From a virus, in the IMG/VR virus record IMGVR_UViG_3300005820_000004, positions 1-41,509 of that record: 41,509 bases of DNA; one strand, given 5' to 3'. Shown here piece after piece: positions 6,675-26,776 of the stretch. Made by a program: the position numbers and the translations under genes. Positions within the stretch are counted from its first letter, which is position 1, and the number at the start of each line of letters is the position of its first letter. The notes under the pieces are model-generated. The model saw nothing but the letters and a program-made list of their open reading frames with translations. It was not told the origin of the DNA and did not search any database.

Positions 6675-6922
6675 TATTTACCTTTCAAAAAAAGTAATGG
6701 GTATTTTACTTTATCTAATGCTAATTTATAATCTTTGTGTTTCAAACACCGTTTGCAAGTAACCTTTCTGGGGTCGAATGTACCTTTAGAATCATACGAT
6801 GAGCCTCTACCTATAATAGTCGCCTCAATGGGTGCAACCATACACCATATATCACAAACTGCCTTGCTCCGACAATTATATTGCTTTATCAAATGTATTG
6901 GTTTAACTCTTGCTTTCGCCAT
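6674..6922 (-). CDS. Small cysteine-containing protein
   Basis: An 82-residue protein with four cysteines in CDIWC and CKRCLKH, likely one zinc site, followed by a Lys-rich helix. It starts inside the last codons of the polymerase gene and its stop overlaps the next start, so it is co-translated with polymerase. Role unknown. Confidence 0.6.
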   Translation of the reverse strand: MAKARVKPIHLIKQYNCRSKAVCDIWCMVAPIEATIIGRGSSYDSKGTFDPRKVTCKRCLKHKDYKLALDKVKYPLLFLKGK

Positions 6923-8435
6923 AGCGTTCTCCCCAGCCTATATCTATATCCCAAGGTATAAATATTGGTAATGCCTTAACCATACATTCATTAATATATT
7001 TCATACCTTCTTTCACATATTCTCTTTTGCACTCTATAACTAATTCATCGTGCACAATATTCACCAACATTAGATTAGGGTTCAATACAATCAGTGCAGC
7101 AGCCACTTTGACAACATCTGCACCATAACTTTGAATCTTAAAATTAAAAGCTTGCCTATAACACCTTTCTTTGCCCCACTTGTTTAACTTATGAAAGTCA
7201 GGGAACCTACGTTTACGCCCTGACATATTTCTAACAAACCCATGTTTATATACTTGCTCTCTTGTTTTTTCAATAGCCCATCTAAGTCCTGGGTACTGAG
7301 CAAAAAACTTATCAATAAATTCTTGTGCTTTTTTCTCTGAGCATTTGAAATCTTTAGCAAACCCATAAGCTGATTTACCATAAGCCGTCCCAAATACAAC
7401 TGATTTACAGTCATCACGTTGCTTTTTATACTTTATCTTTGCAGTATTATGCTCATCAGTTTTATTTGTTAAACCAAGAATAGGTATATTTAGTTTATTT
7501 ATCTCATTGGCTGTAGCCAAATGAACATCATAACCTTTTCGTAGTGCACCTTTTAAGTTGGTGTCACCACTCTCCTGAGCCATTATTCTAACTTCTTGAC
7601 CACTATAGTCAGCCACAATAAGCACATTACCAGGCTCAGATACAAATAAGTTTCTGATGTTTGCGATATTGTTTTGCTTAGGTAACTGTTCTATGTTGGG
7701 TTTACTACAACTTAATCTGCCAGTGACAGCCACAGTATTATGAAAAGAAGAACGAATACGACCATCATCATCTACAAACCTTTCAAATGGAATTAAAAAC
7801 CCATTAAGTAATTTCTCCACCTTACCAAGTTTAATTAGTAAATCAATAGCTGGGTGTTTACCTTTTAATCTATTTTTACTTTGCTTGTTCCAAGACTTTT
7901 TCTTTTCTTTTTTACTTCTCTCATATATCTCAAAACCTAATCCTTCTATTAGGGGAACTACTTGGTCTGAACTATTAAAATTTATAGATGGTTTACATGA
8001 TGTCACTCTACTTCTTGGTGTAATACTAACAATATATTTACCACCAAATATATTTAATAGTTCATTTTCTATTTCATAATATAAATGCTGTACGTCATAA
8101 GTCATTTGTTTAGCAGCACTTACGTCAGCTTTGATACCATTTATTGCAAGGTACATCAATGCTTTCTGGAATGGGAACTCAATGTCATAAGCAAGATGAT
8201 GTAATCCTTCTTTTTCTATTTGGGGTGACTGTAATTTATATAAATCATATGTATTAATTGCATCTTCTGTAGCATATTTAGCAAACTCTGGACTATCTGT
8301 ACCATACTTTATAGCGTCTTTATACTCGGTGACTTCTCTTTTAAGTTGAGTACGGGTTATATATTTCAGACCGTTCTCTTTGAGATTTTCATCGAGTAAA
8401 TGCGATGCCGTGAGCGTGTCATAGATTTTAGGCAT
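6903..8435 (-). CDS. polA: Family-A DNA polymerase, C-terminal fragment (Exo III plus polymerase)
   Basis: This 510-residue polypeptide holds the last part of the 3'-5' exonuclease domain (SHLLDEN near residue 11, Exo III YATED at 54-58) and the whole polymerase domain. Motif A is VADYSGQE (D276), motif B is the O-helix R340-x3-K344-x3-F348-x3-YG, and motif C is VHDE (D463). All catalytic residues are present. The first part of the exonuclease domain is encoded 1.2 kb upstream at 9674-9964, separated by two methyltransferase genes. The N-terminal PKIYDT continues directly from the GIDV end of that fragment. Start ATG is in a TAATG overlap. It replicates the phage genome, with proofreading requiring the other fragment in trans. 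Confidence 0.95.
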   Translation of the reverse strand: MPKIYDTLTASHLLDENLKENGLKYITRTQLKREVTEYKDAIKYGTDSPEFAKYATEDAINTYDLYKLQSPQIEKEGLHHLAYDIEFPFQKALMYLAINGIKADVSAAKQMTYDVQHLYYEIENELLNIFGGKYIVSITPRSRVTSCKPSINFNSSDQVVPLIEGLGFEIYERSKKEKKKSWNKQSKNRLKGKHPAIDLLIKLGKVEKLLNGFLIPFERFVDDDGRIRSSFHNTVAVTGRLSCSKPNIEQLPKQNNIANIRNLFVSEPGNVLIVADYSGQEVRIMAQESGDTNLKGALRKGYDVHLATANEINKLNIPILGLTNKTDEHNTAKIKYKKQRDDCKSVVFGTAYGKSAYGFAKDFKCSEKKAQEFIDKFFAQYPGLRWAIEKTREQVYKHGFVRNMSGRKRRFPDFHKLNKWGKERCYRQAFNFKIQSYGADVVKVAAALIVLNPNLMLVNIVHDELVIECKREYVKEGMKYINECMVKALPIFIPWDIDIGWGERYGESKS

Positions 8436-8971
8436 TACACTTCATCGCCCCATACATCCCAACCTGGGGTTTTCTCACGTGCAAATAATTCTATACGTGG
8501 CAAATCTCCAACAAGTTTAACAATATCACCTCGTATTCGGTCAGGCTTTCTACTGTGTTCCCTTCGAGGTTCTATAACAAGTTGTCGAACTGAGGCCGAT
8601 ACTCGTTTAATATTTCCTTTGGTTGCTAATAAACACTGTTCGGGATTAGAACGTGTCCAATTACCCCCACCAAAATGAAATTTAGTTTTAGCTAATTTAA
8701 CCCAGGTAAAAGCTACCGTCTTATAAGTAAAGCCCCAAGATTTAATTACATCTAATCCAAGTTGTATTTGTGCGTCCATAATCCACAAAAATAGAGCACA
8801 ATTATCATAGGTTATACGCTGTACGGGCAAGGCAAGAATATCTTGTGGTTTCATAGTTTCATATAAAGCCGCTTTAGCCTTAACGCTTAATCCCTTTCTA
8901 TTCTTAAAATTAAAATTCCAAGGCGGGTCAGCATATATTATTTGATATTTTTTATCTGGAAATGGAATCAT
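8435..8971 (-). CDS. MT-A70 family N6-adenine DNA methyltransferase (copy 1)
   Basis: The 178 residues start with KKYQIIYADPPWNFNF, the MT-A70 DPPW catalytic motif, with the partner segment SWGFTYKTVAFTW, and end in LFAREKTPGWDVWGDE. It lies inside the split polymerase gene; its stop forms TAATG with the polymerase fragment's start. It is a paralogue of 10135-10653, and the two 3' ends share a 44-nt exact repeat. It probably methylates adenine in phage DNA, as protection against host restriction or as a timing mark. The target sequence cannot be read from the protein. Confidence 0.88.
   Translation of the reverse strand: MIPFPDKKYQIIYADPPWNFNFKNRKGLSVKAKAALYETMKPQDILALPVQRITYDNCALFLWIMDAQIQLGLDVIKSWGFTYKTVAFTWVKLAKTKFHFGGGNWTRSNPEQCLLATKGNIKRVSASVRQLVIEPRREHSRKPDRIRGDIVKLVGDLPRIELFAREKTPGWDVWGDEV
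8448..8491 (-). repeat. 44-nt exact direct repeat, copy 1
   Basis: Identical to 10166-10209. Both encode the C-terminus of an MT-A70 methyltransferase. The pair brackets the polymerase N-terminal fragment and could recombine, deleting about 1.7 kb. Confidence 0.95.
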
Positions 8972-9681
8972 ATTTCTACCCCTTCAATTCGCTGATTTTG
9001 GATATAATATTTTACAGGAGATTGTTTCTTTATAAAAACAATAAAATAACAATGAAACTTTCTGGCGTGTTGTTGTACTTTCATATTAGGTGACATCATT
9101 CTGTGTTTGGCAAGAAGTATAAATAAATCTTTAGGATAAAAACCCAAAGCAGCGGCCTTATTAATTATTTCTATGTGCGACATATATTGCTTTGCAGAGT
9201 CTATACAATCCTGACATTTAACCACTAATATACCATTTTGTTTTAGTATTCTATAAAACTCAGTTAATGCTGCGTGGTACATAGGCCATAAATGATTTTG
9301 TGTAGTTTTATACGACCCGAAACGTGCTCTTATAATTCCATTAGTTGTATTTCCTTTACCAGCTACAAATGGCGGGTCAAATATCATAGTGTTAATAGAC
9401 TCATTATTTAATGGTAAGTTACAACAATCAGATTGTTCTACACCCTCTATTTGAGGATTCAAGTCAAACCTTAATTGTGGTTTTGGTATATTTTTGTAAA
9501 AACACCCCTTACTATAGGTAGGGTCTAATTCAAAACCAACAGGACAATAAAGTTGAATTATCCAATTTAGTATTTCATCTTGTGAATATGAAATTGATTT
9601 TATCATATTTCTACCCCCCCTTTTAACAATACCATCATCACAAACTAAATAATTAGGAAAGTCTTTAATCCTCTTAAACAT
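8968..9681 (-). CDS. DNA methyltransferase (DPPF) with NUMOD4-like N-terminal extension
   Basis: Residues 27-237 form a DNA methyltransferase: FELDPTYSKGCFYK, then LRFDLNP and the catalytic IFDPPF near residue 110, followed by FYRILKQNGILVVK. Residues 1-23 (FKRIKDFPNYLVCDDGIVKR) instead resemble NUMOD4, the N-terminal DNA-recognition module of HNH homing endonucleases. Two starts are credible. ATG 9681 uses AAGGAGGG supplied by the polymerase codons HKEG, and ATG 9606 uses AAGGGGGGG within the extension; 9606 gives a normal-looking enzyme. It lies within the split polymerase gene and overlaps the next gene by 4 nt. The substrate base is adenine N6 or cytosine N4. Confidence 0.8.
   Translation of the reverse strand: MFKRIKDFPNYLVCDDGIVKRGGRNMIKSISYSQDEILNWIIQLYCPVGFELDPTYSKGCFYKNIPKPQLRFDLNPQIEGVEQSDCCNLPLNNESINTMIFDPPFVAGKGNTTNGIIRARFGSYKTTQNHLWPMYHAALTEFYRILKQNGILVVKCQDCIDSAKQYMSHIEIINKAAALGFYPKDLFILLAKHRMMSPNMKVQQHARKFHCYFIVFIKKQSPVKYYIQNQRIEGVEI
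9607..9681 (-). pseudogene. NUMOD4-like remnant of a homing endonuclease
   Basis: Twenty-five codons in frame with the methyltransferase match the NUMOD4 pattern (WK-I-x-x-F/Y-x-x-Y-x-V-S-x-x-G-x-V-K). They begin immediately at the point where the polymerase coding sequence breaks. A run of seven G (plus-strand C7 at 9614-9620) lies near the end. No HNH catalytic motif follows, so this is probably the relic of an endonuclease replaced by the methyltransferase. Confidence 0.5.
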
Positions 9682-9964
9682 CTATGCCCTCCTTATGAAG
9701 TACAGATAAATCAAATGCGGCATTGTGCATAACCACCATCTTAGTCTCACTTAAATAGTAATCAAGAATCATTAGTAACTCTTTTTTATACTTCCTATGT
9801 ATATCTACGTAGCAAGCTTGCTGCCCATCGCATATACTAAACCCTATCATTTCAAGGTCTAACCAATTCAGGGATGTAGCCTCTGTATCCAGTGAGTAAA
9901 TTGGTTTTAGGGTTTTACACCAATCCCGAAAATCATTAGGAGTTGTTATTACTGATGTTTTCAC
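9674..9964 (-). CDS. polA: Family-A DNA polymerase, N-terminal exonuclease fragment (Exo I and Exo II)
   Basis: A 96-residue polypeptide with Exo I (IYSLDTEATSL, D26 and E28) and Exo II (MHNAAFDLSVL). It ends in HKEGIDV, exactly where the other fragment resumes with PKIYDT. Together they give about 605 residues, normal for a phage family-A polymerase. Start GTG 9964 is chosen because it overlaps the preceding stop as GTGA; a longer reading into the upstream gene gives an implausible peptide. The last codons also form the ribosome-binding site of the methyltransferase. The proofreading centre needs both chains. Confidence 0.88.
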   Translation of the reverse strand: MKTSVITTPNDFRDWCKTLKPIYSLDTEATSLNWLDLEMIGFSICDGQQACYVDIHRKYKKELLMILDYYLSETKMVVMHNAAFDLSVLHKEGIDV

Positions 9965-10125
9965 TTGTATGTTTTCCCTAATGGAATAACTATACCAAAG
10001 CACAACCAACCAATCATAAACGCCGATGGTTTCCCAATAACATCTAACTGTACAAATGGTATAATATCCCATACATACTTGTCACATCTAAATCCCCAAC
10101 GATATCTAAGTTCTTTCTTTTTCAC
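9961..10125 (-). CDS. Hypothetical 54-residue protein with hydrophobic C-terminus
   Basis: Start GTG 10125 after GAGG, 7 nt upstream. The protein has a basic start (KKKELRYRWGFRCDKYVWD) and a hydrophobic stretch (SAFMIGWLCFGIVIPLG) that could span a membrane. Its TGA stop overlaps the GTG of the polymerase N-fragment, so the two are translationally coupled. I do not recognise a family with known function. Confidence 0.6.
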   Translation of the reverse strand: MKKKELRYRWGFRCDKYVWDIIPFVQLDVIGKPSAFMIGWLCFGIVIPLGKTYK

Positions 10126-11115: not shown

Positions 11116-11130
11116 TTTTACCCCTTTCAT

Positions 11131-16208: not shown

Positions 16209-16463
16209 TTATTCCATAAAACTAAATAATTGTTGTCGCCCTACTTTAAATATTGGTTCTATTTGAGAATAATTTACACTCCAAATATACGTCCTTCCCT
16301 TGTGGGATTTAAACATCTGTACTCGACAGGAACTTTCTCTATCACGCAGACTAATAACCCTACCGATACTACCAACTTCTCCTTCCAATACACCCACATC
16401 CGTAGCTGATAGTAGTATTCTTACTTTATCCCCTACTTTGAATTTTGTTTTACTTTTTAACAT
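16209..16463 (-). CDS. SH3-like mini-protein with QLF tail (family member 1)
   Basis: 84 residues; start ATG 16463 after AAGGT. N-terminal FKVGDKVRILLS is the first strand pair of an SH3/KOW-like barrel, followed by IGRVISL and IWSVNYSQIEPI. The protein ends in RQQLFSFME. It is one of nine small proteins between 16 and 24 kb with this layout and a conserved C-terminal Q-L-x-(L)-F tail. No enzyme motif; adaptor role inferred. Confidence 0.65.
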   Translation of the reverse strand: MLKSKTKFKVGDKVRILLSATDVGVLEGEVGSIGRVISLRDRESSCRVQMFKSHKGRTYIWSVNYSQIEPIFKVGRQQLFSFME

Positions 16464-16493
16464 AGCCAATACCTTCGCAATTAAAACCCAGCT

Positions 16494-16910
16494 TTAGCTT
16501 GTCTGATTTTTCAAATCAGCAATTTCTTTTCTATCTTTAGGTTTACTTATCAAGTAACTACCAGCAGTAAAAGTGCCACCAAACATAAGTAGAGAGAGTA
16601 TCCCATCTGGGGAAAATATAGTACTTTTAAGCTCTTCTCCTGATACTATAGAAATGTTCATAACATTTTGATAATACCCACATTTAATTCTTTCAAGAGA
16701 GAATTTATAATCAATAGCATTAGCAACTCGTTTCGCATCCCATAAAGTTGTATATGGCATAAATAGTTTGGGGGGCACATTTGCCCATTCAGCAGCTTCT
16801 GTATTTATATAAGCAGGGGTAACAATATCCTGTATACACCCAGCACCAACAAACACTAAAGTTATTATTCCTGCTAATACTATAATTGTTGTTTGCAATA
16901 GTTTTTTCAT
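16494..16910 (-). CDS. Putative membrane lipoprotein with second TM segment
   Basis: 138 residues. A basic N-terminus and hydrophobic core (TTIIVLAGIITLVFVGAGC) make a signal peptide with Cys24 in a lipobox-like setting (the -3 residue is Gly, so not ideal). A second hydrophobic stretch lies near residues 103-121 (DGILSLLMFGGTFTAGSYLI) and the tail is charged. The middle is soluble and extracytoplasmic if the lipid anchor is right. It could be an early membrane protein such as a superinfection-exclusion factor; this is inference. Confidence 0.6.
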   Translation of the reverse strand: MKKLLQTTIIVLAGIITLVFVGAGCIQDIVTPAYINTEAAEWANVPPKLFMPYTTLWDAKRVANAIDYKFSLERIKCGYYQNVMNISIVSGEELKSTIFSPDGILSLLMFGGTFTAGSYLISKPKDRKEIADLKNQTS

Positions 16911-16943
16911 TTTGTTCTCCTTTTAAATTTATAATTGTAATTT

Positions 16944-17207
16944 CTATAACTCAAATAACATTAATTGCCTTCTGGCTAATTCTATTTCTGATTCAAACAC
17001 AAACAAACCCCCTTTAGCATCATCGTTATCGAAACTAATGCGATACTCCCCTTCCCTATCAGGCCCAGAATTATAAACAGTATTTATAGTTCCTATACTT
17101 CCAATTCTACGGGTATTTATACCATAGCAATCCACTAATTTCTGTGGCATATCCAACCATTTCTTAACATAAACTCTATCACCCAATTTAAATTTAGATT
17201 TATCCAT
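16944..17207 (-). CDS. SH3-like mini-protein with QLMLF tail (family member 2)
   Basis: 87 residues: FKLGDRVYVKKW start, IGSIGTINTVYN core, and the end IELARRQLMLFEL. The tail QLMLF fits the bacterial sliding-clamp pentapeptide QL-x-LF exactly. It overlaps the 17200 gene by 8 nt. Confidence 0.65.
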   Translation of the reverse strand: MDKSKFKLGDRVYVKKWLDMPQKLVDCYGINTRRIGSIGTINTVYNSGPDREGEYRISFDNDDAKGGLFVFESEIELARRQLMLFEL

Positions 17208-17400
17208 CCCTATATTTCCTTTTCATTTCGCACTCTATTAGGATACAATTAATTTCCTCATCTGTAAGATATTTATACCTCCGTATTAAAGTGATAATTT
17301 GATGACACCCTTTACGTATTCTACGAATAACTGCTTTATTTTTGTCACTATCATAAATAATATGATGATTCTGAAATATTACTTTCTTCTTTTTAGCCAT
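17200..17400 (-). CDS. Small conserved phage protein with NHHI motif
   Basis: 66 residues from ATG 17400 (site AAAGGA). FQNHHIIYDSDK and RKGCHQIITLIRRY recall the His-rich strand of His-Me finger (HNH) folds and a known class of small phage proteins. It lacks enough sequence for a complete nuclease, so catalytic activity is doubtful. It lies just after the primase gene. Confidence 0.55.
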   Translation of the reverse strand: MAKKKKVIFQNHHIIYDSDKNKAVIRRIRKGCHQIITLIRRYKYLTDEEINCILIECEMKRKYRDG

Positions 17401-17427
17401 AAAATTTCCTTTCTTCAAACAACTTTG

Positions 17428-18309
17428 TCAAATCATTTTAGATAACTCTTTTCCAACAACCTCCTTACCCTTTAATTTAATATACTCTCTTATATCTTTA
17501 GCACCGTCAAAAGAAAATATGTCACAACTAATGTAATCAATACCCACATCATCATTACAAGGTATTCCTTCTATTATACCCCTTAGTTTTTCTGCCCCCT
17601 TTATTCCTACAGTATCATTATCAGGTATTATAACTACTCGTTCAACATCTTCTAAAATATCCATGAATAACACTTCAATACCTTCTGTATAGTGGCAATG
17701 TGGGCGGGATATACTTTGTAAACCTAAATCCCATACATTTATGCCATCACTAAATCCCTCACAAATAAATATATAATAATCACCAACCCAATTATATGGA
17801 TAAATAAGTCCTAAACAAGAATCCTTTACACAACGCTTATCCCCATTTGAAAACCTACGTTGTGCTCCACAAAAACTACCGTCTTTGTAATGTTTACTCA
17901 AATCCTCTCTAATCATTGGAATAATAAATGACTCACCGTCATAGCCCACTAACCATCTATCTAAACTTTTCGTACTTATATTTAATTGTTTAGTCAACTC
18001 TAATTTTAACAATGGACGTCTTTTTAAATTATTATAACAACTATAAACAAATTCTTGCCATTTTGTTGCCGATTTTTGCGAATAGTTTTTGTACCTAATA
18101 GAGTCTGATAAATTTAATAGAGCCATTTGAGTATTATTTAATAAGCCATCTTTACCACAAGCCCAACATTTATACCTTCCATAATATTTTTCTCTTAATG
18201 ATATAGAAAAATTAGGTCTAATAGTGTCATTATGAAAAGGACAATATGACCATGCGTTATCCGAATCTATAAACTTGATATTTAACTTTTCAAAATCTAA
18301 ATTTTTCAT
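17428..18309 (-). CDS. dnaG: DNA primase (CHC2 zinc finger plus Toprim)
   Basis: 293 residues. The zinc finger has C23-PFH26 and C48-WAC51. The Toprim fold follows in the C-terminal half with FICEGFSDGINVW (catalytic E and D) and VVIIPDNDTVG (D-x-D). It is compact and lacks a separate helicase-binding domain. It makes RNA primers for phage replication, with the DnaB-like helicase encoded just upstream. Start ATG overlaps the preceding stop. Confidence 0.92.
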   Translation of the reverse strand: MKNLDFEKLNIKFIDSDNAWSYCPFHNDTIRPNFSISLREKYYGRYKCWACGKDGLLNNTQMALLNLSDSIRYKNYSQKSATKWQEFVYSCYNNLKRRPLLKLELTKQLNISTKSLDRWLVGYDGESFIIPMIREDLSKHYKDGSFCGAQRRFSNGDKRCVKDSCLGLIYPYNWVGDYYIFICEGFSDGINVWDLGLQSISRPHCHYTEGIEVLFMDILEDVERVVIIPDNDTVGIKGAEKLRGIIEGIPCNDDVGIDYISCDIFSFDGAKDIREYIKLKGKEVVGKELSKMI

Positions 18310-18548
18310 ACATCACAATACATAAATGAAAATAATAACTGTCCCTTTACTTTCTCTATTTCGTCAGCATACATTAGACGCTCCCAGTTTTTATTTTGCA
18401 TCCATCTGACCCTATAATCATAGTAACCATAAGAGAACACCCCAGTAACTTCACATACTTTACCAATATTATTACGAATTGGCTTTGCAGGTCTAAACCG
18501 GGTAGAAAATTTAACTATCCGTACTATATCACCAATTTTGAATTTCAT
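18306..18548 (-). CDS. SH3-like mini-protein with QLLF tail (family member 3)
   Basis: 80 residues: FKIGDIVRIVKFS, then the block RFRPAKPI, YDYRVRW strands and the tail KGQLLFSFMYCDV. A 24-nt stretch coding RFRPAKPI (18478-18501) is identical to one in the paralogue at 19658-19891, although there it sits near the C-terminus. It lies between primase and another family member. Confidence 0.65.
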   Translation of the reverse strand: MKFKIGDIVRIVKFSTRFRPAKPIRNNIGKVCEVTGVFSYGYYDYRVRWMQNKNWERLMYADEIEKVKGQLLFSFMYCDV

Positions 18549-18551
18549 AAT

Positions 18552-18770
18552 TTATAACTCAAATAACATTAGTTGTTTTCTCGCTAATTCTATTTCTTTT
18601 GGATGATAAGGAAATGGTGAGCCTGAACCCTTATAGCTAACCCTTACATAATGACTACCAATCCTAACTACTATTCCAACTTTAGTACCTTGTGGAAACA
18701 TATGTATATACTTAGTGTGTAATTTTACTTTATCTCCAACCTTAAATTTTGTAGTTATTTTGTTATCCAT
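18552..18770 (-). CDS. SH3-like mini-protein with QLMLF tail (family member 4)
   Basis: 72 residues: FKVGDKVKLHTKYI, VGIVVRIGSHYVRVSY, and the tail IELARKQLMLFEL, almost identical to member 2. It directly follows the helicase gene (1-nt overlap), so it is made with the replisome. Confidence 0.68.
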   Translation of the reverse strand: MDNKITTKFKVGDKVKLHTKYIHMFPQGTKVGIVVRIGSHYVRVSYKGSGSPFPYHPKEIELARKQLMLFEL

Positions 18771-19648
18771 TAGAAACTCTCCTCATTAGGTAGGTTCTGA
18801 AAACTCATCCACTGTGCAATCCACCCACAATTTACAACACCAGTTCTACCACCCCTATTTTTACATACAATTAATTCTGCCTCTCCTGTATCTTCTGCAT
18901 TTGGGTCTAATTGCTTATCAAAATAACTTGGTCTATGTATCAATATAATTTTAGTAGAATCATTTTCCATAGCCCCACTTTCTCTCAAGTCAGTCATACG
19001 AGGTCTTGACGATTCTCGATATTCCACATTTCTACTAAGTTGGGAAAAAGCTACAACAGGAATATTAAACTCTCTTGCTATAGCTTTTAATTCTCTACTT
19101 ATCTCTGATACCTCCTCTTGTCTATTTACTACCTGTTTTCTCAAAGACATAAGCTGCAAATAATCTATAATTAGACATGCAATAGGCTCATCTTTTTCAA
19201 TAAACCTAAGAATATCTCTTATTGAATCGGGTACAACGTACGAATCGTCATTAACTATAATACTATACTGAGATAATTGCTCAAGTGATGCCTGAAATTT
19301 AGATAATACTTTATTATTTGCATAACCCCTTTTTATACTTTGATAATCAGCTTTAGCTAAATTTGCGGCCAGCAACTCTGTTACATCCTCACAAGACATT
19401 TCTAAAGTGCATAATAAAGCTGCACCGGCATTGCCATTTACTGCTGGCTGTCCTACATTAAGCAATATATCTCTCGCCATACTGGATTTTCCCATCCCCG
19501 GCCTACCCCCTATTGTTGACATCTCCCCTTTACCAAACCCCAAAATAAAATTATCTAATGATACAATACCAGATTTAATACCATCAAAAGGCTTTCCCAT
19601 GTTGTGTTTAATATCTTGAAGATTTTTTCTAAAATCAAAAAGTGGCAT
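18770..19648 (-). CDS. dnaB: Replicative DnaB-like helicase (RecA-fold domain only)
   Basis: 292 residues. Walker A GGRPGMGKSS (47-56), switch TLEMSCEDV, Walker B CLIIDYLQLM, then VVAFSQLSRNVEYR and ESGAMENDS, all DnaB/SF4 signatures. The DnaB N-terminal collar domain is absent, as in several phage helicases. The final LIVCKNRGGRTG holds the arginine-finger region. It unwinds the fork and works with the primase at 17428-18309. Confidence 0.92.
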   Translation of the reverse strand: MPLFDFRKNLQDIKHNMGKPFDGIKSGIVSLDNFILGFGKGEMSTIGGRPGMGKSSMARDILLNVGQPAVNGNAGAALLCTLEMSCEDVTELLAANLAKADYQSIKRGYANNKVLSKFQASLEQLSQYSIIVNDDSYVVPDSIRDILRFIEKDEPIACLIIDYLQLMSLRKQVVNRQEEVSEISRELKAIAREFNIPVVAFSQLSRNVEYRESSRPRMTDLRESGAMENDSTKIILIHRPSYFDKQLDPNAEDTGEAELIVCKNRGGRTGVVNCGWIAQWMSFQNLPNEESF

Positions 19649-19657
19649 ACTAAAGTA

Positions 19658-19891
19658 TCACTCCATAAAGGAAAACAATAATTGCTTTTTTATTGGCTTT
19701 GCAGGTCTAAACCGGTCTGAGTTATAGAGTTCTGCCACATTTTCATTTTGTTTATTTTTAGATATTCCTATCCATTCTATATAAGCAAATGATTCTCCCA
19801 CACATCTTACCACTACGGCAGTAGCCCCTGAATTTATCTCCAAAAAACTATTATCAACAAGCTCTACTAATTGTCCAACCCTAAATTTCAT
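19658..19891 (-). CDS. SH3-like mini-protein with QLLF tail (family member 5)
   Basis: 77 residues from ATG 19891 (site AAGGATTC, within the GluRS end). FRVGQLVELVDNS, ATAVVVRCVG, YIEWIG, then RFRPAKPI directly before the tail KKQLLFSFME. The ATGGAG of the tail codons supplies the ribosome-binding site of the helicase gene 9 nt later. Confidence 0.65.
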   Translation of the reverse strand: MKFRVGQLVELVDNSFLEINSGATAVVVRCVGESFAYIEWIGISKNKQNENVAELYNSDRFRPAKPIKKQLLFSFME

Positions 19892-20756
19892 TTCTGAATC
19901 CTTTACTATGTAAGTATTTGTTCTTATATTTACGATTAAATGATTGAAGCTTTTTATCATCAAATTTACTATTAGATTTTTTAAACCTATCAATAGAAAA
20001 AATACTTACCAAATCGTCTAAACTGATTATTTCCTTATTACCACCAATACTCCATCCTAACAACACAAGATAGTTTAGTAGAGCTTCTGGTAATATACCA
20101 CTATCCCTATAATCTTTAACATTAACTTTATTATCGTTACGCTTACTCATCTTACTACCATCCATGTTAAGTATTATTGATACATGAGAATAAATTGGGG
20201 TATTCTTTATTTCAAGAGAATTTCTAATTATTTGTTGTGGTATACAATTATTAAGGTGCTCTTTGCCACGTATTACATGCGTTATATTCATTTTATAATC
20301 ATCTATCACACAGGCAAAGTTATATGTAGGAAAACCATCACTTTTTCGTATAACAAAATTCTTCATACCTTTAGTGCTAACTGTTACACTACCAACAATC
20401 GTATCATGTACAGTTATATTTTGATTATGTGGTACTCCAAGAAATACAGCCTGTGTATCTGATTTTATATATGCAAGATTACTGTCTAATAATTTATCTA
20501 TATATAAATTATAAATATCTAAGTTATTAGATTGACACTCTACCTTATCACACCAATCTAACCCAAGCCATTGTAAATCTTCCATAATAATAGCAACAGC
20601 TTTCTCTTGATGTCTTTTGCGGTCTGTATCCTCAATACGTAAGATAAATCTTCCGTTATTGTGCTTTGCCAATAACCAATTAAACAGTGCTGTTCTCGCA
20701 CCCCCTACATGCAAAGAGCCTGTTGGGGAAGGTGCAAAACGGGTGGTAACATTCAT
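19881..20756 (-). CDS. Glutamyl-tRNA synthetase-like protein, catalytic domain only
   Basis: 291 residues against about 460-490 for bacterial GluRS. The HIGH-type motif FAPSPTGSLHVGG (8-19), IEDTD at 41-45, RKSDGFPTYNFACVIDD, VIRGKEHLNN and KMSKR (202-206) are present, then the usual EALLNYLVLLGW and FDDKKLQSFNRKY. The protein stops there, so the anticodon-binding domain is absent, and the zinc-finger insertion after residue 95 is much reduced. Glu-Q-RS is also short, but the long C-terminal part and KMSKR fit GluRS better. It probably activates glutamate; the tRNA acceptor is uncertain. A lone odd tRNA at 26777-26847 is a candidate. Site GAGG before ATG 20756. Confidence 0.85.
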   Translation of the reverse strand: MNVTTRFAPSPTGSLHVGGARTALFNWLLAKHNNGRFILRIEDTDRKRHQEKAVAIIMEDLQWLGLDWCDKVECQSNNLDIYNLYIDKLLDSNLAYIKSDTQAVFLGVPHNQNITVHDTIVGSVTVSTKGMKNFVIRKSDGFPTYNFACVIDDYKMNITHVIRGKEHLNNCIPQQIIRNSLEIKNTPIYSHVSIILNMDGSKMSKRNDNKVNVKDYRDSGILPEALLNYLVLLGWSIGGNKEIISLDDLVSIFSIDRFKKSNSKFDDKKLQSFNRKYKNKYLHSKGFRNEI

Positions 20757-20786
20757 AGCAATACCTCATAATATCTTTAATCTAAA

Positions 20787-21014
20787 CTACACTCGGTACA
20801 TAAAATCAAATAATGTTTGTTTCCTTGATAATGACAAACTTTGTAGTGGAAAAACCCATTCTGTCTCCTTAACAAAATAGTTTCCATAATCACTTGTACC
20901 TGTAATAGTAACTGTTTTTCCTACAAATTCATCCATTGCAGGAGAAACCCACGCACACCTACCCGTAGAAATGGGTTTAATAACTTTTACTTTATCACCA
21001 TTATTAAATTTCAT
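20787..21014 (-). CDS. SH3-like mini-protein with Q-x-LF tail (family member 6)
   Basis: 75 residues: FNNGDKVKVIKPI, VGKTVTITGTSDYGNYFVK, and the tail SRKQTLFDFMYRV. Start ATG 21014 is inside the end of the previous gene. It directly precedes the GluRS-like gene. Confidence 0.62.
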   Translation of the reverse strand: MKFNNGDKVKVIKPISTGRCAWVSPAMDEFVGKTVTITGTSDYGNYFVKETEWVFPLQSLSLSRKQTLFDFMYRV

Positions 21015-21297
21015 TTTCCCGTTCCATTTCAATTATTTTATCTTTAACAGATTTACCCTGAAATTTAGGTTTGTGAGAAACCTTATACTGTTTATCTAAG
21101 TTATTAAGTACCCATCGCATAGCTACAGCAGGCCAATACGCTATTCCTTTCCACCCCTTACTCTCAAAATATAAATAACAATTTTGTGCCATATAGTCTA
21201 ACTGTGTATTGCTAAAGGAGTACCCTTTCTTTTTAGAATATTCCTTCATAACTTCAAAAACATCTTCTTCCGATTGTGGTTTATTTACTTTAGCCAT
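21004..21297 (-). CDS. Small replication-accessory-like protein (GWK...W motif)
   Basis: 97 residues with a helix-rich start and the segment YLYFESKGWKGIAYWPAVAMRW. This resembles the C-terminal DNA-binding piece of phage helicase loaders and replisome organisers (FYxxxGWxx...DWKxxxRxW). The N-terminal domain of those proteins is missing. A helper of the helicase is a reasonable guess. It starts inside the stop region of the preceding mini-protein gene. Confidence 0.5.
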   Translation of the reverse strand: MAKVNKPQSEEDVFEVMKEYSKKKGYSFSNTQLDYMAQNCYLYFESKGWKGIAYWPAVAMRWVLNNLDKQYKVSHKPKFQGKSVKDKIIEMERENEI

Positions 21298-21553
21298 TAT
21301 ACATAAAACCAAATAATATTTGTCGGTTTGGTAATGCCAATAGTTCTACATGCTGCCAACTACATCTCCACGTAAATTTAGTACCGTCTAGCAGTACAGG
21401 ATAATACCCATCCACATGTTTATCGGCAGTCGGCAAAAATATGATAGGATTACCATTATGTTGTAACCCAACTATTGTACCTATCTTGTTATAATCTTCT
21501 GAGTTATAAATAAATCTAATCCTGGTTCCTACTGGGTATTGTTTAATTGCCAT
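21290..21553 (-). CDS. SH3-like mini-protein with Q-x-LF tail (family member 7)
   Basis: 87 residues: VGTRIRFIYNS, IGTIVGLQHNG, PIIFLPTAD, TWRCSWQHVELL, tail NRQILFGFMYNG. It forms a closer subfamily with 21852-22094 (shared GT-x-W-x-CSW-x-x-(I/V)EL). Confidence 0.62.
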   Translation of the reverse strand: MAIKQYPVGTRIRFIYNSEDYNKIGTIVGLQHNGNPIIFLPTADKHVDGYYPVLLDGTKFTWRCSWQHVELLALPNRQILFGFMYNG

Positions 21554-21562
21554 AATTTTACC

Positions 21563-21838
21563 TTAAAATGGTGTGTCCCCTGTTGGAGAACCATCTTGCT
21601 CACGCACAGGCGTTATAACATCTTTAACATAAAGATATTCAAGAATTTTAGTAATACCAAGTTGCACCTTTACTAAATCTGCTGGCTTAAAGCTCTTTGT
21701 TCGTTTCCACGTTTCGCCATCTTTATATGATTTATCAATAGTTATACTATAGAATGTACCCTTACTGGTACTATTTGCCCAAAGACTTAATTGAATACCA
21801 CCTACTTTAATTGTTTTTTCTGGTGCACTACTACTCAT
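21563..21838 (-). CDS. PC4/YdbC-like ssDNA-binding protein candidate
   Basis: 91 residues: IKVGGIQLSLWANS, FYSITIDKSYKDGETWKRTK, SFKPADLVKVQLGITKILEYL. The strand-strand-helix order and the WKRTKSF segment resemble small phage proteins with a PC4/whirly-like single-strand-binding fold. It lies within the replication operon and could be the phage SSB; no acidic SSB tail is seen. Identification is by pattern only. Confidence 0.5.
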   Translation of the reverse strand: MSSSAPEKTIKVGGIQLSLWANSTSKGTFYSITIDKSYKDGETWKRTKSFKPADLVKVQLGITKILEYLYVKDVITPVREQDGSPTGDTPF

Positions 21839-21851
21839 AATAATTTCCTTT

Positions 21852-22094
21852 CTATTGTTTCATAAAATTAAATAATAACTGCCCTCTTATTAGTTCTATA
21901 TTACCCCAAGAACATATCCACGTTCCTGTAATACCACTAGGGGTGAGAAAACTCGTTTTATTAGACTCTGGTAAATACACAATAGGGCTACTACCAATCA
22001 TACCTGCAAACTTTCCGAGCAACCCCGTATCTATTTTAGGGTGAACAAACTTAACTTTAGTACCTATCATTGGTAAGTGTTTAGGCTTTTTCAT
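21852..22094 (-). CDS. SH3-like mini-protein with QLLF tail (family member 8)
   Basis: 80 residues: IGTKVKFVHPKI, PIVYLPESN, GTWICSWGNIELI and the tail RGQLLFNFMKQ. Closest to member 7. Last gene of its stretch before the terminator at about 22140 in the upstream direction. Confidence 0.62.
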   Translation of the reverse strand: MKKPKHLPMIGTKVKFVHPKIDTGLLGKFAGMIGSSPIVYLPESNKTSFLTPSGITGTWICSWGNIELIRGQLLFNFMKQ

Positions 22095-22121
22095 AATAAT
22101 TTAATAATATATGATTGCAAT

Positions 22122-22160
22122 AAAAGGCACAGATAATTTCCATATATCTCTGTGCCTTTA
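22122..22160 (-). terminator. Hairpin terminator between two minus-strand units
   Basis: An 11-bp perfect stem AAAGGCACAGA (22123-22133) with TCTGTGCCTTT (22149-22159) and a 15-nt loop, followed on the minus strand by TTTTATT. It lies 27 nt after the 22187 gene stop and before the 22094 start. Confidence 0.75.
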
Positions 22161-22186
22161 TCTCAATAGACATTGATTACTAAATT

Positions 22187-22540
22187 TTAGCAATCAATAA
22201 ACTCGCCGGAACCGTCAGGATTATAAAACTTATCCTTTTCTGCCGGTACATCTTCAACATAACCTCTACCATTCGAGGGTTCCTGAACCATTACAACCTT
22301 ACGGCTATTACGTGCAATACCCGTATCTGTGTTGATGAGATATGCACGAAACTGACCGTTAGATTGTTTAATTCGGCAAAGTACATAAACATCACCGTTT
22401 TCATGTTTCAGGGATAAACCGATTGGAAATGTTTGTGCTGAACATGCTTCAACTAACTTAGCTAAAGCATTGGCTACTTTTGGCTTGTCGGTATCAATAA
22501 CAACCTTTTTACCATTCAACTTTACTGTCATTTTACTCAT
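22187..22540 (-). CDS. Hypothetical 117-residue protein
   Basis: Beta-rich N-terminus (MTVKLNGKKVVIDTD), a helix (VANALAKLVEACS), then GDVYVLCRIKQ and an acidic C-terminal tail (EDVPAEKDKFYNPDGSGEF). Expressed with the upstream gene (8-nt overlap) from the structured leader near 23 kb and ended by the terminator at 22.14 kb. Not recognised. Confidence 0.65.
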   Translation of the reverse strand: MSKMTVKLNGKKVVIDTDKPKVANALAKLVEACSAQTFPIGLSLKHENGDVYVLCRIKQSNGQFRAYLINTDTGIARNSRKVVMVQEPSNGRGYVEDVPAEKDKFYNPDGSGEFIDC

Positions 22541-22970
22541 TGCTTGCTCCTTTTAAGGAATCTAATACAATTTTTACACTTTCTGTTTTGGCGGGATATT
22601 TACCAAACTTACCAAGAATGTGAACAAGAACCTTTTTAGGATTAGCACTTGCTTTATACGCCTTTTTATACTCATCCATTATCAGATTAAGTATCTTTAT
22701 GCTTTGGCTATTAGGTACAGCAAGATTTAATCCTATTGCTAATTGTTCCCAATTTGGCTCATGTTTGGTATCCCTTTTTGAATCATCCTTAACACTTTTA
22801 TGCTCCAAATAGACATAATTAACATATTTTTCTGCTAATGTAGTAATCTTTTCAACGTCATAAACATCCTCCAAAGGTAATTTTTCAATTAAACTTTTTA
22901 CTATTGCTAATTTACTTATTCGCATATCCTTTTCTGCAAAACTCTTAATTTCCTCTTTTGTGTAAGCCAT
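22533..22970 (-). CDS. Hypothetical 145-residue helical protein
   Basis: Highly charged, all-helical prediction: EIKSFAEKDMRISKLAIVK, DVEKITTLAEKYVNYVY, LNLIMDEYKKAYKAS. Strong site AGGGGG before ATG 22970. First gene behind the leader that holds two matched hairpins and the element shared with the head operon, so probably strongly or specially expressed. Not recognised. Confidence 0.65.
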   Translation of the reverse strand: MAYTKEEIKSFAEKDMRISKLAIVKSLIEKLPLEDVYDVEKITTLAEKYVNYVYLEHKSVKDDSKRDTKHEPNWEQLAIGLNLAVPNSQSIKILNLIMDEYKKAYKASANPKKVLVHILGKFGKYPAKTESVKIVLDSLKGASNE

Positions 22971-23027
22971 AATACTACCCCCTATATAATTCCTGTATAT
23001 ATATATATATATAACTTATTATATTTA

Positions 23028-23103
23028 GTACTATATATAACTTTGTTTATATAAGTACTTTATTATATTTATGTGCTATATATAACTTTGTTTATATAAG
23101 CAC
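23028..23103 (-). repeat. Tandem pair of covarying hairpins
   Basis: Two units 45 nt apart. Each has a 5-bp outer stem, a one-base bulge, a 7-bp inner stem (TATATAA/TTATATA) and loop CTTTGT: 23028-23058 with GTACT/AGTAC and 23073-23103 with GTGCT/AGCAC. The A-T to G-C change on both sides of the stem keeps pairing intact. They lie in the leader of the 22533-22970 gene, next to a (TA)n run. Confidence 0.7.
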
Positions 23104-23132
23104 TTAGGTAATATATAATAATATGCCCCTCT

Positions 23133-23161
23133 GTACTTACCCCAGATTTGGGGGGGTTTTT
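23133..23161 (-). repeat. 29-nt element, copy A (minus-strand leader)
   Basis: The minus-strand reading begins AAAAACCCCCCC and contains CCCCAAATCTGGGG (5-bp hairpin), then TAAGTAC. It is a perfect match to the plus-strand sequence 31426-31454, and weaker similarity extends about 30 nt further downstream. It lies 163 nt before the 22970 start. Confidence 0.85.
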
Positions 23162-23181
23162 ACGCCCGATAAAAAATAAAT

Positions 23182-23187
23182 ATTATA
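23182..23187 (-). promoter_or_regulatory. Possible -10 box TATAAT for the 22.5-23 kb unit
   Basis: A perfect TATAAT on the minus strand, with a TTGAGA 14 nt upstream (short spacing). It is immediately upstream of the 29-nt element, so transcription from here would place that element in the leader. Confidence 0.3.
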
Positions 23188-23245
23188 ATTTTTTGTAATT
23201 TTCTCAACTTTTATCTAACGATTGTATCGGTTATAACTTTAATAC

Positions 23246-23497
23246 CTAAAATTTCTGTCGTATTGCTAAATCTTCACTTTCATAATCAAAATAATAGGCA
23301 TTTCTTATTGATTCTTGGTTTCTTTTATAAGTTTTACGAAGGTTAGCGGCATTGTTAAACTCCTTAGAGTGATTTTTACTAAGCGACTCTATTCTTTCTC
23401 GTATAGTCGCTAAACATACACCTTGTTTTTCTGCTATAACCCTTAATGAATAGTTTTGTGCGAATAATAATAATGTTGTTTTTTGTTTTTTAGTCAT
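23246..23497 (-). CDS. Small helix-turn-helix protein
   Basis: 83 residues: KKQKTTLLLFAQNYSLRVIA, then EKQGVCLATIRERIESLSKN fits a sigma-region-4/LuxR-type helix-turn-helix (LTxxQ...S-x-x-x-I-A-x-x-x-G-V-x-x-x-T-I-R). The C-terminal part is charged. Likely a DNA-binding regulator; it sits next to the structured intergenic region at 23.0-23.2 kb, a plausible target. Confidence 0.6.
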   Translation of the reverse strand: MTKKQKTTLLLFAQNYSLRVIAEKQGVCLATIRERIESLSKNHSKEFNNAANLRKTYKRNQESIRNAYYFDYESEDLAIRQKF

Positions 23498-23505
23498 AAT
23501 TGTAC

Positions 23506-23766
23506 CTAATATCTATTTTGCTCCATAAAATTAAACATTAACTGCTTTTTTGGAGGAATTATAACAATATCATACTTTTTGAACCACCGACTCGTACCTA
23601 CTGCACGACTAAAAGTTGGTAAGGTAGTTATGGTTTCGCAACTAACACAATACGTATCAAAATATTTTCCAGTTATTTTTCCTGTTAACCCACATAATTG
23701 TGGGGTTATTCCAACATATCTAACCTTATCACCTATTTTAAATCCCACTTTTATTTTAAATTCCAC
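23506..23766 (-). CDS. SH3-like mini-protein with QLMF tail (family member 9)
   Basis: 86 residues: FKIGDKVRYVGIT, LTGKITGKYF, YDIVIIPPKKQLMFNFMEQNRY. Same strand pattern and tail as the members at 16-22 kb, although in a different transcription unit. Confidence 0.62.
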   Translation of the reverse strand: MEFKIKVGFKIGDKVRYVGITPQLCGLTGKITGKYFDTYCVSCETITTLPTFSRAVGTSRWFKKYDIVIIPPKKQLMFNFMEQNRY

Positions 23767-23832
23767 TTTATAGCTCCTTAAAATGGGTTTGTTAAATACT
23801 TATCTAATTAATTTTGTTAGGTAATTATTAAA

Positions 23833-23997
23833 CTAATTGCGAGCTTCAGCCTCTTTATATTTTTTGGCTTTCCACTCTGATTTAGTATAATTAACTTGTT
23901 TATCAACCACAACACGACCAAGCCTACGTTCCCTTTTAGTTATTTTTTTATCATCCTTGCTAATCGGTCGATATGTACCTACTTTTTTGAATTGCAT
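23833..23997 (-). CDS. Hypothetical 54-residue basic protein
   Basis: Perfect AGGAGG site before ATG 23997. Rich in Lys/Arg (KDDKKITKRERRLGRVVVDK, then SEWKAKKYKEAEARN). Probably binds nucleic acid or is an unfolded partner. Not recognised. Confidence 0.6.
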   Translation of the reverse strand: MQFKKVGTYRPISKDDKKITKRERRLGRVVVDKQVNYTKSEWKAKKYKEAEARN

Positions 23998-24009
23998 ATA
24001 TCAATCCTC

Positions 24010-25347
24010 CTAATAACGATTAAGTGATTTGTTAGAGATAGCACAATTTATACATATTGGTTTTCCACTTTTAGTTATCTTTGTTGCCTGTGGTGGTATA
24101 ATTGCTTTACATTCTTCACAAATACGAGTACCCAATAACTCTTTTGTCATAGCATCTAATTTTTCACAGCACAAAGAGCAAATCTTTTCACCATCTCTAA
24201 TTTCAAAATCATTATCTGGTATAAACTCTCGGCATAGATTACAGATTAAAGATGTCGCATTTATAGCACAAGTTGGACAATACAATTTTCCATTTATACT
24301 TCTAATTACCCCACTGGTTTTTGTTAATTTCTCACCACATGACAGACAAGTATAGCTGTCTTTAGGTATTATATTGGGGCTACTATTCTTTTTGTTTTTC
24401 TCTTTTTGTTTACACTGCCAACAAACATTGCCATACTCCTTATCCTTCGTGGTAGTATTGTAGGTGTATGAAGAGAACGAATATAATTTTTTCCATTCAC
24501 CACATTTTTCACATTTTTTAGTTTTACTCCAATCATTTTTATAATTAAAGTTATTATAAGTAGTAACAATCTTTGCTGGTAGTGAAGTATATCGTTTAGG
24601 TTTTAATGTTTGTATTATTTCTTTAGTAAATTTAATACTATGCCATAAATCTTTTATAGAGATATATTCAGAGGGTGAGTGGGGGTTATAAAACCCACAA
24701 GATAAGTTAATACAAGATATACCTATTCTGTTATTCCATAATTTCATTACATCCGTAACAGTACCTATTGCTGTTTTATAGTGATACTTCTTCTTTACTG
24801 CTCCAATTTCAGATGAAAAGGTATGAGATACAGTTTTTTTACCACAATATGCTTGAATAAAATCTTTATTGCCCTTCCTGTCTAACTGAATAATATACCT
24901 GCAATCATCAAAAAACCTATGGTTTACTTTATCACTTCCTTTACAACCTACTTCTTCTCTTGAGAAAAATACAACTTTTATTTCGGGTACAACCTTTAAT
25001 AAATATAAGCAAGCAAATATACCACACTTATCATCACCGCCTATACCTACTTTTTGTTTATTACTTTTGGCAAATAATATATCTTTATTCTTTTGTCTTG
25101 TATAAATAGTAAAATCGGATACAAAACTATGAACAGTGTCCATATGTGATACTACACATGGATAGGTTTTTGATTTCCCCTTAATGACTAATATATTTCC
25201 TGCGGAGTCAATTCCGTAATCTAAATTTAGCTTATGTAATTCTTTATCAAGGTACAATACCATTAGTTTTTCATTTTCACTATTGGATTGAACTTTTAGT
25301 AACCCAAGTAATGTATTATATGATTCTGTATCTATATACTGTTCCAT
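24010..25347 (-). CDS. M20-family metallopeptidase fused to zinc-ribbon array
   Basis: 445 residues from ATG 25347 (site AAAGGA). Residues 1-250 are an M20 (PepT/aminoacylase-like) catalytic domain with all five metal ligands visible: SHMDTVH (H68), GGDD (D105), SREEVG (E131, E132), IQLDRKG (D156) and FYNPHSP (H223). The dimerisation (lid) insert is very short. From residue 278 a second region carries eight CxxC pairs (CEKC, CWQC, CLSC, CPTC, CNLC, CSLC, CEEC, CINC), about four zinc ribbons. The enzyme should cleave a peptide or N-acyl amino acid; the ribbons may bind nucleic acid or a target protein. I know of no standard phage role for this fusion. Confidence 0.82.
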   Translation of the reverse strand: MEQYIDTESYNTLLGLLKVQSNSENEKLMVLYLDKELHKLNLDYGIDSAGNILVIKGKSKTYPCVVSHMDTVHSFVSDFTIYTRQKNKDILFAKSNKQKVGIGGDDKCGIFACLYLLKVVPEIKVVFFSREEVGCKGSDKVNHRFFDDCRYIIQLDRKGNKDFIQAYCGKKTVSHTFSSEIGAVKKKYHYKTAIGTVTDVMKLWNNRIGISCINLSCGFYNPHSPSEYISIKDLWHSIKFTKEIIQTLKPKRYTSLPAKIVTTYNNFNYKNDWSKTKKCEKCGEWKKLYSFSSYTYNTTTKDKEYGNVCWQCKQKEKNKKNSSPNIIPKDSYTCLSCGEKLTKTSGVIRSINGKLYCPTCAINATSLICNLCREFIPDNDFEIRDGEKICSLCCEKLDAMTKELLGTRICEECKAIIPPQATKITKSGKPICINCAISNKSLNRY

Positions 25348-25348
25348 T

Positions 25349-26734
25349 TTATTGTCCTTTTGCGTCAAATAACAATGATTGATTTTTATTGGGCTGTTCA
25401 AATGAACTTCTAAGGTAGTATTTTTTATTAAACTTTTTTACGTTTTCCCTGTTTTTAGCATTATTTATTATAAGTTCCCCCGTAGCAAGTTTAGTGAGAC
25501 TATTTTCCATAACCATTGTTTTTATAGCTGATGTTAAGTAATATACTTCTTGGTATTCCACTTTTTCTAATATTGGGTTGTAAAAGAGGTTATATACTAT
25601 TGTTGTACATTCTTTAGGTATAAAAGGCTTTTCTGCCATAACATCTTCGTATGGTATATAAGGAAACGTAGAATCAAAAAATATTAGTTGTTGTTTTTCT
25701 GCTGTAGCCCCCCCTTCGCCGTTAAATAGTTCTTCAATTTCTTTATTTACCTTTTCTCGATTGTAGTTTATAAAACACTGTGAAATATGGTATCCTTTTC
25801 CATCATACATAATAATTTCTGGGTCTTGTTTATGGTATATCTCATTATGTATTTTTACTATATTTGATTTGTGAACAAAACCTTTATACTTTTTGGTATC
25901 GATGGCTTTAGTTTTGTCTATTTTTATACCTGTTATAGCCTCCTTAACAGAATTACTTTTTAATATCCAACCATCGAGTTGTGTATTGCAAATGTCTTTA
26001 TCGTGTGTACTATAATATGCTCCATTTATATCAACGATATTTCTTTTCAATACATACCCATCATACTTTTTTATAAAAACACAATCCCTTTTTGACACCC
26101 AATTAGCAGTAATTGCTTCCTGTAAACTGTTTGGGTCTATTTCTCTATGATACCCATAAACTGCTGTTGTTGTTAGTGAGAGGCTAAAACGAGGGTGTTT
26201 TATTTTATCGAGTTTATCATTTCCTTCAACAGATTTACGATGCCCCGATGTAATAATATTATCTTTGTAAAATAAATATCTAAAAGTATCAGTATACGGT
26301 AAATGTGTTATCCCTTCTATTGTTATATCATCTTTGTAAAAATATGTTTCTGCATCTCCTGCACTGGTACTTGGGTAGAATAGCCATTTCTTTTTTTCTG
26401 CCATGTCCCAAAATAATGGAGCATAACTACTTTTAACATAATAAACCCTATCTAAATATGTACATTTTTTGATTTTCCATTTTTTACTTTTTACATTGTC
26501 CCACAATAATGCTCTTGCATATATTTTATTATTTTTATCTGTTAAAACAACAATTCTAACCTTGTTTTTGACATAGAAATTTAATGCTTTTTGCATTTCC
26601 TTGGTTCTCATACAACTATTACCAAGAGAGTCTATTTGACCAATATAATTATTTTTAAAGTAAGCGTAATGAATTCCAGTTGATGGCCATATATGCAAAG
26701 TAAGTTGTGCATCCAATTTCTTAACCTCTCTCAT
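25349..26734 (-). CDS. Phage protein of unknown function with repeats and a QSLLF tail
   Basis: 461 residues; start ATG 26734 (GGAG 8 nt upstream). The longer frame runs into the tRNA and is not used. The N-terminal part has LGNSCMRTKEMQKALNFYV, KIYARALLWDN and LDRVYYVKSS, a pattern seen in uncharacterised phage proteins; a GNAT-like fold is possible but unproven. Residues 245-345 hold three near-repeats of the type Y-x-G-(Y/F)-V-x-K-(R/S)-N-I-V-x-I. An internal EKQQLIFF and the C-terminal NKNQSLLFDA resemble the tails of the SH3-like mini-proteins. It is the first gene after the tRNA and 1 nt before the peptidase gene. Confidence 0.6.
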   Translation of the reverse strand: MREVKKLDAQLTLHIWPSTGIHYAYFKNNYIGQIDSLGNSCMRTKEMQKALNFYVKNKVRIVVLTDKNNKIYARALLWDNVKSKKWKIKKCTYLDRVYYVKSSYAPLFWDMAEKKKWLFYPSTSAGDAETYFYKDDITIEGITHLPYTDTFRYLFYKDNIITSGHRKSVEGNDKLDKIKHPRFSLSLTTTAVYGYHREIDPNSLQEAITANWVSKRDCVFIKKYDGYVLKRNIVDINGAYYSTHDKDICNTQLDGWILKSNSVKEAITGIKIDKTKAIDTKKYKGFVHKSNIVKIHNEIYHKQDPEIIMYDGKGYHISQCFINYNREKVNKEIEELFNGEGGATAEKQQLIFFDSTFPYIPYEDVMAEKPFIPKECTTIVYNLFYNPILEKVEYQEVYYLTSAIKTMVMENSLTKLATGELIINNAKNRENVKKFNKKYYLRSSFEQPNKNQSLLFDAKGQ

Positions 26735-26776
26735 TGTTACATCTCCGTACCATAAATAATAATCAATAACATTAAA

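Follow-up and report, generated by a model that had tools for sequence, protein, structure and literature searches.

A paralogous array of small SH3-like phage proteins with a conserved C-terminal tail that resembles bacterial sliding-clamp-binding motifs

Why would a virus maintain nine different small proteins which all terminate in the same short tail? This question is raised by the IMG/VR virus record IMGVR_UViG_3300005820_000004, a 41,509-base stretch of DNA which has been analysed over its whole length (the window) and which encodes, on the minus strand, nine mini-proteins that combine an SH3-like N-terminal head with a C-terminal motif of the type QLxFxF or QLxLF. The evidence supports that the mini-proteins are one homologous family with a shared tail under protein-level selection. 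With a probability of about 0.6, the tails are C-terminal clamp-binding motifs which would dock many small adaptors on the sliding clamp (β-clamp, DnaN) of the host, with the host clamp as the presumed partner.

The nine open reading frames (ORFs) possess the strand, coordinates and endings given by a first-pass annotation of this DNA, with one start to be corrected. Mini-protein 1 (16209..16463, 84 amino acids (aa)), characterized by alignment and an AlphaFold2 (AF2) model, has an SH3/KOW-like head and the tail RQQLFSFME, and its orthologues are mostly found at the unchanged gene slot in related viruses. Mini-protein 2 (16944..17207, 87 aa) and mini-protein 4 (18552..18770, 72 aa) end with RRQLMLFEL and RKQLMLFEL, respectively, both canonical clamp-binding pentamers, and orthologues of mini-protein 4 from four relatives display the hexamer form. 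The tails KGQLLFSFMYCDV, RKQTLFDFMYRV, NRQILFGFMYNG and KKQLMFNFMEQNRY terminate mini-proteins 3 (18306..18548, 80 aa), 6 (20787..21014, 75 aa counted from the ATG), 7 (21290..21553, 87 aa) and 9 (23506..23766, 86 aa), respectively, and mini-protein 8 (21852..22094, 80 aa) ends with RGQLLFNFMKQ. Mini-protein 5 (19658..19891, tail KKQLLFSFME) is the one with the corrected start: its ORF extends over 111 aa from a TTG (up to 19993), and homology sets the start at the ATG at 19891, which leaves 77 aa.

When all window ORFs of at least 60 aa (n = 106) were inspected for a clamp-like motif within the last 16 residues, 11 were positive, ten of which are the nine mini-proteins and p484, a large protein discussed below. 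When the residues of these ORFs were shuffled 1000 times, motif-bearing ORFs numbered 0.43 on average and three at most, and the motif occurred in 0.4% of their internal 16-mers. For five relatives the corresponding figures are 55 ORFs with a clamp-like C-terminal motif out of 692, versus a shuffled mean of 4.0. Synonymous codons for Ser, Leu and Gln are mixed among the tail copies, as had been recognized before, which indicates that selection acts on the protein and rules out a DNA-level repeat.

The family alignment comprises 59 mini-protein rows from the window and its relatives, with carriers of 64-98 aa. Although identity among the heads is low, at about 25-30% up to a third, they are homologous according to BLAST (57 of 59 linked at E <1e-3). 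The columns conserved to at least 90% are a single Gly in the head and Q, F and F in the tail, with a mean information of 3.4 bits in tail columns versus 1.4 bits in head columns; free variation of the tail among homologues, a check named beforehand, is thus not what the 59 proteins show. QxxFxF predominates with 55 mini-proteins, three end with QLMLF and one with QLLLW. Gln at position 1 is invariant (59/59, and 7/7 p484 orthologues), the aliphatic position 2 is Leu in 53/59, with exceptions including Q, T and I as well as S in the p484 of the window, and the final anchor, located at position 5 of the pentamer or 6 of the hexamer, is Phe or Leu in all except one protein, which has Trp (58/59). 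Leu at position 4 is present in four mini-proteins (the three with QLMLF and the one with QLLLW) and in 4/7 p484 orthologues (QSLLF, QLLLF, QLLLL and QLNLF). Within orthologue groups of the mini-proteins, QLLFxF alternates with QLMLF or QLLLW. The pentamer register [QEKR]QLLF was rejected as a general reading of the tail, with the preceding residue being Q in just 27/59 and position 3 being free.

With the 59-row alignment as input, AF2 models mini-protein 1 with a mean predicted local distance difference test (pLDDT) score of 83.8 as a small beta barrel (residues 13-70), outside of which the tail (residues 71-84) is placed as coil with a pLDDT of about 60-66. Burial of the tail in the domain core, the other check named beforehand, is not seen in this model, and the tail as a component of the barrel was dismissed, as p484 carries it too. 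The closest solved folds are human DSIF KOW6-7 (VIA Z 10.3), Bacillus subtilis YorP (9.4) and the NusG C-terminal domain (8.9); nearest by sequence profile are HERC2 and MIB1 domains (E 1.5e-6). The head, described as SH3-like already in the first-pass annotation, is hence predicted to be a small SH3-like barrel, with fold and profile pointing to different subclasses (KOW/NusG vs MIB/HERC2). SH3-like barrels of this sort bind peptides or nucleic acid.

The unrelated p484 (25349..26734, minus strand) had rightly been singled out as a large protein with the same type of tail. It comprises 461 aa from 26734 or 484 aa from 26803, the former start being preferable because a tRNA-Ser gene covers the longer start. 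As p484 ends with NQSLLFDAKGQ, the motif is located a few residues short of the C-terminus. All seven p484 orthologues, the window included, display a clamp-like motif at the aligned C-terminal site, namely QSLLF (window), QLAFDF, QLLFEF, QLQFSF, QLLLF, QLLLL and QLNLF, the latter in a distant cousin with 37% identity. The AF2 model of p484 is weak (66.6), with residues 470-484 below 50; these residues, as the arm of mini-protein 1, appear to be a flexible accessible segment. An internal QQLIFF was not counted as a motif, since it is unconserved in relatives. The overlapping tRNA-Ser gene (26777-26847, minus strand) has the unusual anticodon ACT. p484 adjoins an M20/M42-type peptidase, the two together spanning 24010-26803 (minus strand), and this pair is also encoded by Cellulophaga phage phi40:1 and apparently by a 735-kb huge phage, with the p484 homologue there being tailless.

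How widespread is the array? Relatives were found via a DnaB-type helicase query, the tail-encoding DNA pattern and neighbour alignments, and eight further IMG/VR records contain it: 3300008516_000904, which is near identical to the window, 3300022538_000217, 3300022538_000248, 3300005253_000289, 3300009034_000068, 3300022540_000325 and its near-identical counterpart 3300022542_000566, and, as a fragment of a distant cousin, 3300037245_001563. Complete regions encode 9-12 mini-proteins per genome, all with the tail, one cut contig encodes six, and the distant cousin encodes four with the tails QLHFMFK, QTYFQFK and QLHFQFK. The record 3300033148_003689 encodes p484, and this fragment ends short of the mini-protein region. 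A family hidden Markov model (HMM) matched 63 ORFs in all DNA gathered for the analysis, 61 of them inside the lineage and every one of those with the tail; the two tailless matches both belong to Pseudomonas phage ventosus. The latter are SH3-like proteins (L050:6007-6438 and 6774-7160) with longer C-termini, encoded near DNA polymerase A and endonuclease VII genes. In cultured phages, tblastn with the mini-proteins gave weak matches only (E 0.2 or worse), with the single match inspected being tailless, and the distant helicase-match loci L006-L015 have no tails. A host search in bacterial genome contigs with alignments of the primase and the conserved early protein p91 retrieved no clear relative. 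As the p484 homologues of Cellulophaga and huge phages are tailless, the tail looks lineage-specific, and, with no phage family or paralogous array of such tailed mini-proteins found in the open-access papers searched, the mini-protein family is apparently undescribed.

Within the lineage the mini-protein genes are distributed over a core early gene order that is kept in relatives: p484, peptidase, helix-turn-helix (HTH) protein, p145, p117, p91, p102, helicase, primase, p72, p138 and p149, with p72 or p138 undetected in some relatives. Almost every gap in this order contains a mini-protein gene. Reciprocal-best-hit groups show that several paralogues hold their gap across genomes and that others moved, such as the window ORF 20787, which is located between p102 and GluRS, with orthologues mostly found between HTH and p145. 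That gaps are held across genomes makes the heads look like distinct, separately kept subfamilies.

To which partner would such a tail bind? Motifs that bind the bacterial β-clamp fall into pentamers, Q-phi-x-[LM]-[FL], and hexamers, Q-phi-x-[LM]-x-[FL], which are often C-terminal and flexible and are aided by acidic flanks (PMC11139829). QLNLF, present in one p484 orthologue, is the clamp motif of Escherichia coli UmuC (PMC3716654), QLPLWG is the motif of mycobacterial ImuB (PMC10421592), and others are QLGLF of Pol II, QVELEF of Pol III alpha and QLSLPL of Hda (PMC11139829, PMC3716654, PMC10421592). Two lengths swapped at one site fit a partner that accepts a Gln and two hydrophobic anchors, as the β-clamp does. 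The previously proposed fit to the clamp motif thus holds in part: QLMLF is a canonical pentamer and both lengths interchange, but the dominant QLxFxF has Phe (55/59 mini-proteins), not Leu or Met, at position 4. This Phe is the main reason for caution and heads the observations that weigh against clamp docking, as position 4 of the natural motifs reviewed is always Leu or Met and a Phe placed there weakened one E. coli motif peptide (PMC11139829). To the same side belong the basic residues frequent before the tail Gln, the phage polymerase, primase and helicase, which are all without the tail, and the number of paralogues, which docking alone does not explain. The binding of B. subtilis MutS to DnaN via QLSFF, with Phe at position 4, is an unconfirmed lead only.

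The DnaN family has no match in the window or the eight relatives, records which are partly fragmentary, with 10 of 14 control genomes being positive; for a gp45-type clamp, the large window ORFs scanned gave no Pfam match, with no separate gp45 search made. Since no DnaN-type clamp was found to be encoded by the phage, the clamp would most likely be host DnaN if the tail is indeed a clamp motif. As judged from the sequences, clamp docking would be a credible mechanism for this strongly selected family. Each mini-protein would be a small SH3/KOW-like barrel extended by a C-terminal arm, short and flexible, that would insert its conserved Gln and both of its hydrophobic anchors (QLxFxF or the pentamer QLxLF) into the peptide pocket of the sliding clamp, most likely host DnaN. 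The heads, diverged into several subfamilies, may each hold or recognise a different thing. Presumably expressed early in infection, the 9-12 paralogues and p484 would occupy clamp sockets and thereby redirect or block host clamp clients, with an adaptor or a shut-off role conceivable, and phage DNA would meanwhile be copied by the phage's own family-A polymerase, primase and helicase. In its most far-reaching form, which we put forward tentatively, a clampless phage lineage would turn host DnaN into an adaptor hub on which up to a dozen paralogues dock via QLxFxF, a new Phe-anchored motif class, to bring partners or displace host clients at replicating DNA.

Alternatively, the tail might dock on another hub, phage-encoded or of the host, such as a conserved early operon protein or host RNA polymerase, and its likeness to clamp motifs would be coincidental. 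The position-4 Phe, by which QLxFxF deviates from the clamp motifs described so far, would be in line with such a hub, for which p91, p102, p117 and p145, conserved early proteins present in every relative and without a known family, provide candidates; however, QLMLF, QLLLF, QLLLL and QLNLF are all canonical clamp pentamers, and pentamers and hexamers replace each other at a single site, which makes this alternative somewhat unlikely. That the tail does not dock at all, being a structural part of the barrel, a degron or a DNA-level repeat, is very improbable: it is always C-terminal and hydrophobic, but AF2 sets it outside the barrel, albeit at low confidence, it also ends p484, which is no SH3-like mini-protein, its codons vary freely, and a degron would not need an invariant Gln.

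Two further readings are sub-versions of clamp docking, and the confidences overlap. Docking may mainly serve to shut off host replication, with many competing tails jamming the host clamp and the heads as mere carriers. An over-expressed clamp-motif peptide halts E. coli growth (PMC11139829), the toxins SocB and RipA target the same clamp pocket (PMC12795458), and the phage encodes a family-A polymerase of its own, with no DnaN-type clamp found. Yet one protein would be enough for this purpose, and the heads form orthologue groups that persist from genome to genome, several of them at a constant slot, so that the heads appear selected for distinct jobs; shut-off as the main function is possible, though doubtful. 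That clamp-tethered KOW-like heads act on transcription and couple phage transcription to replication, as T4 gp33 and gp55 do with gp45, is improbable. The closest head folds include the DSIF/Spt5 KOW and the NusG C-terminal domain, and T4 gp43, gp55 and gp33 have C-terminal clamp-binding tails in common that can replace one another (PMC2988020), but SH3-like barrels are widespread and similarity of fold does not demonstrate a function, by sequence profile the heads come closest to HERC2/MIB1 domains, and neither a phage clamp nor a sigma factor was found.

The genes interleaved with the mini-proteins had been designated as primase, helicase, GluRS and an 'SSB candidate', of which the latter is without Pfam or PHROG match. 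Pfam identified the others on the minus strand as a primase-like protein with Zn ribbon and Toprim (17428..18309), a DnaB_C helicase (18770..19648), which was the query that retrieved the relatives, and a GluRS catalytic domain (19881-20756). With 291 aa, the GluRS domain looks short for a full GluRS, and among the main relatives it is found at the same place only in 3300022540_000325, with 77% identity. The family-A DNA polymerase (Pfam; 6903..10072, minus strand), the C-terminus of which has no clamp motif, is encoded by two ORFs (9674-10072 and 6903-8435), with the break falling within the 3'-5' exonuclease domain. Four relatives have the identical split point with different intervening DNA, which in two cases is only about 160 bases long, and an Rfam scan of the window showed no intron family. 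A pair of MT-A70 methyltransferases (8435-8971 and 10135-10653, minus strand; 44% identical) is located on either side of the first half of the polymerase. The terminase large subunit apparently extends over two ORFs (32360-33283 and 33235-34395, plus strand) that overlap in different frames, by a frameshift or a true split. The ORFs 10690-11130 and 15755-16204 (minus strand, about 147 aa) look paralogous, and the second belongs to the conserved core order.

Clamp motifs have so far been described as single tags on polymerases, repair proteins, T4 late-transcription factors and a few toxins. If clamp docking holds true, the host clamp would emerge as a hub of phage takeover, served by a whole set of small docking adaptors, the clamp motif would be extended to a Phe-x-Phe class, and the tails would be natural peptides for clamp-inhibitor work. 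The family furthermore suggests a testable function for many SH3-like phage mini-proteins. Among those, B. subtilis YorP has a similar barrel size and start and matches over the full mini-protein model, and the SH3/KOW-like small phage proteins of PHROGs 10201, 5785 and 5546 resemble the mini-proteins with E-values of 2e-3 to 2e-5. We know of no comparable invariant tail for SH3/KOW-like small phage proteins, and the weak relatives in Pseudomonas phage ventosus are, unlike the mini-proteins of the window, tailless.

With bacterial β-clamp motifs the tails share the leading Gln, the aliphatic position 2, hydrophobic anchors at positions 4 and 5/6, the occurrence as pentamer and hexamer and the often C-terminal flexible location (PMC11139829, PMC3716654, PMC10421592), whereas the dominance of Phe at position 4 and the carriers, a multi-copy array of 64-98 aa phage proteins, set them apart. 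SocB of Caulobacter, RipA of Streptococcus and Gp168 of phage Twort are aimed at the host sliding clamp as well, SocB by the usual clamp-binding motif (PMC9690074, PMC12795458). SocB and RipA are, however, single toxins with antitoxins in contrast to a multi-copy array of SH3-like heads with a shared tail, and Gp168, which inhibits in the DNA channel of the clamp (PMC11139829), has neither an array nor an SH3-like head with such a tail. In phage T4, gp33, gp55 and gp43 are unlike proteins with one short hydrophobic interchangeable C-terminal clamp tail (PMC2988020); these tails bind the phage's own gp45, whereas in the present lineage a phage clamp of the DnaN family was not found and most of the carriers belong to a single family of paralogous small barrels. 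A common interchangeable clamp tail on several phage proteins thus has its best precedent in T4.

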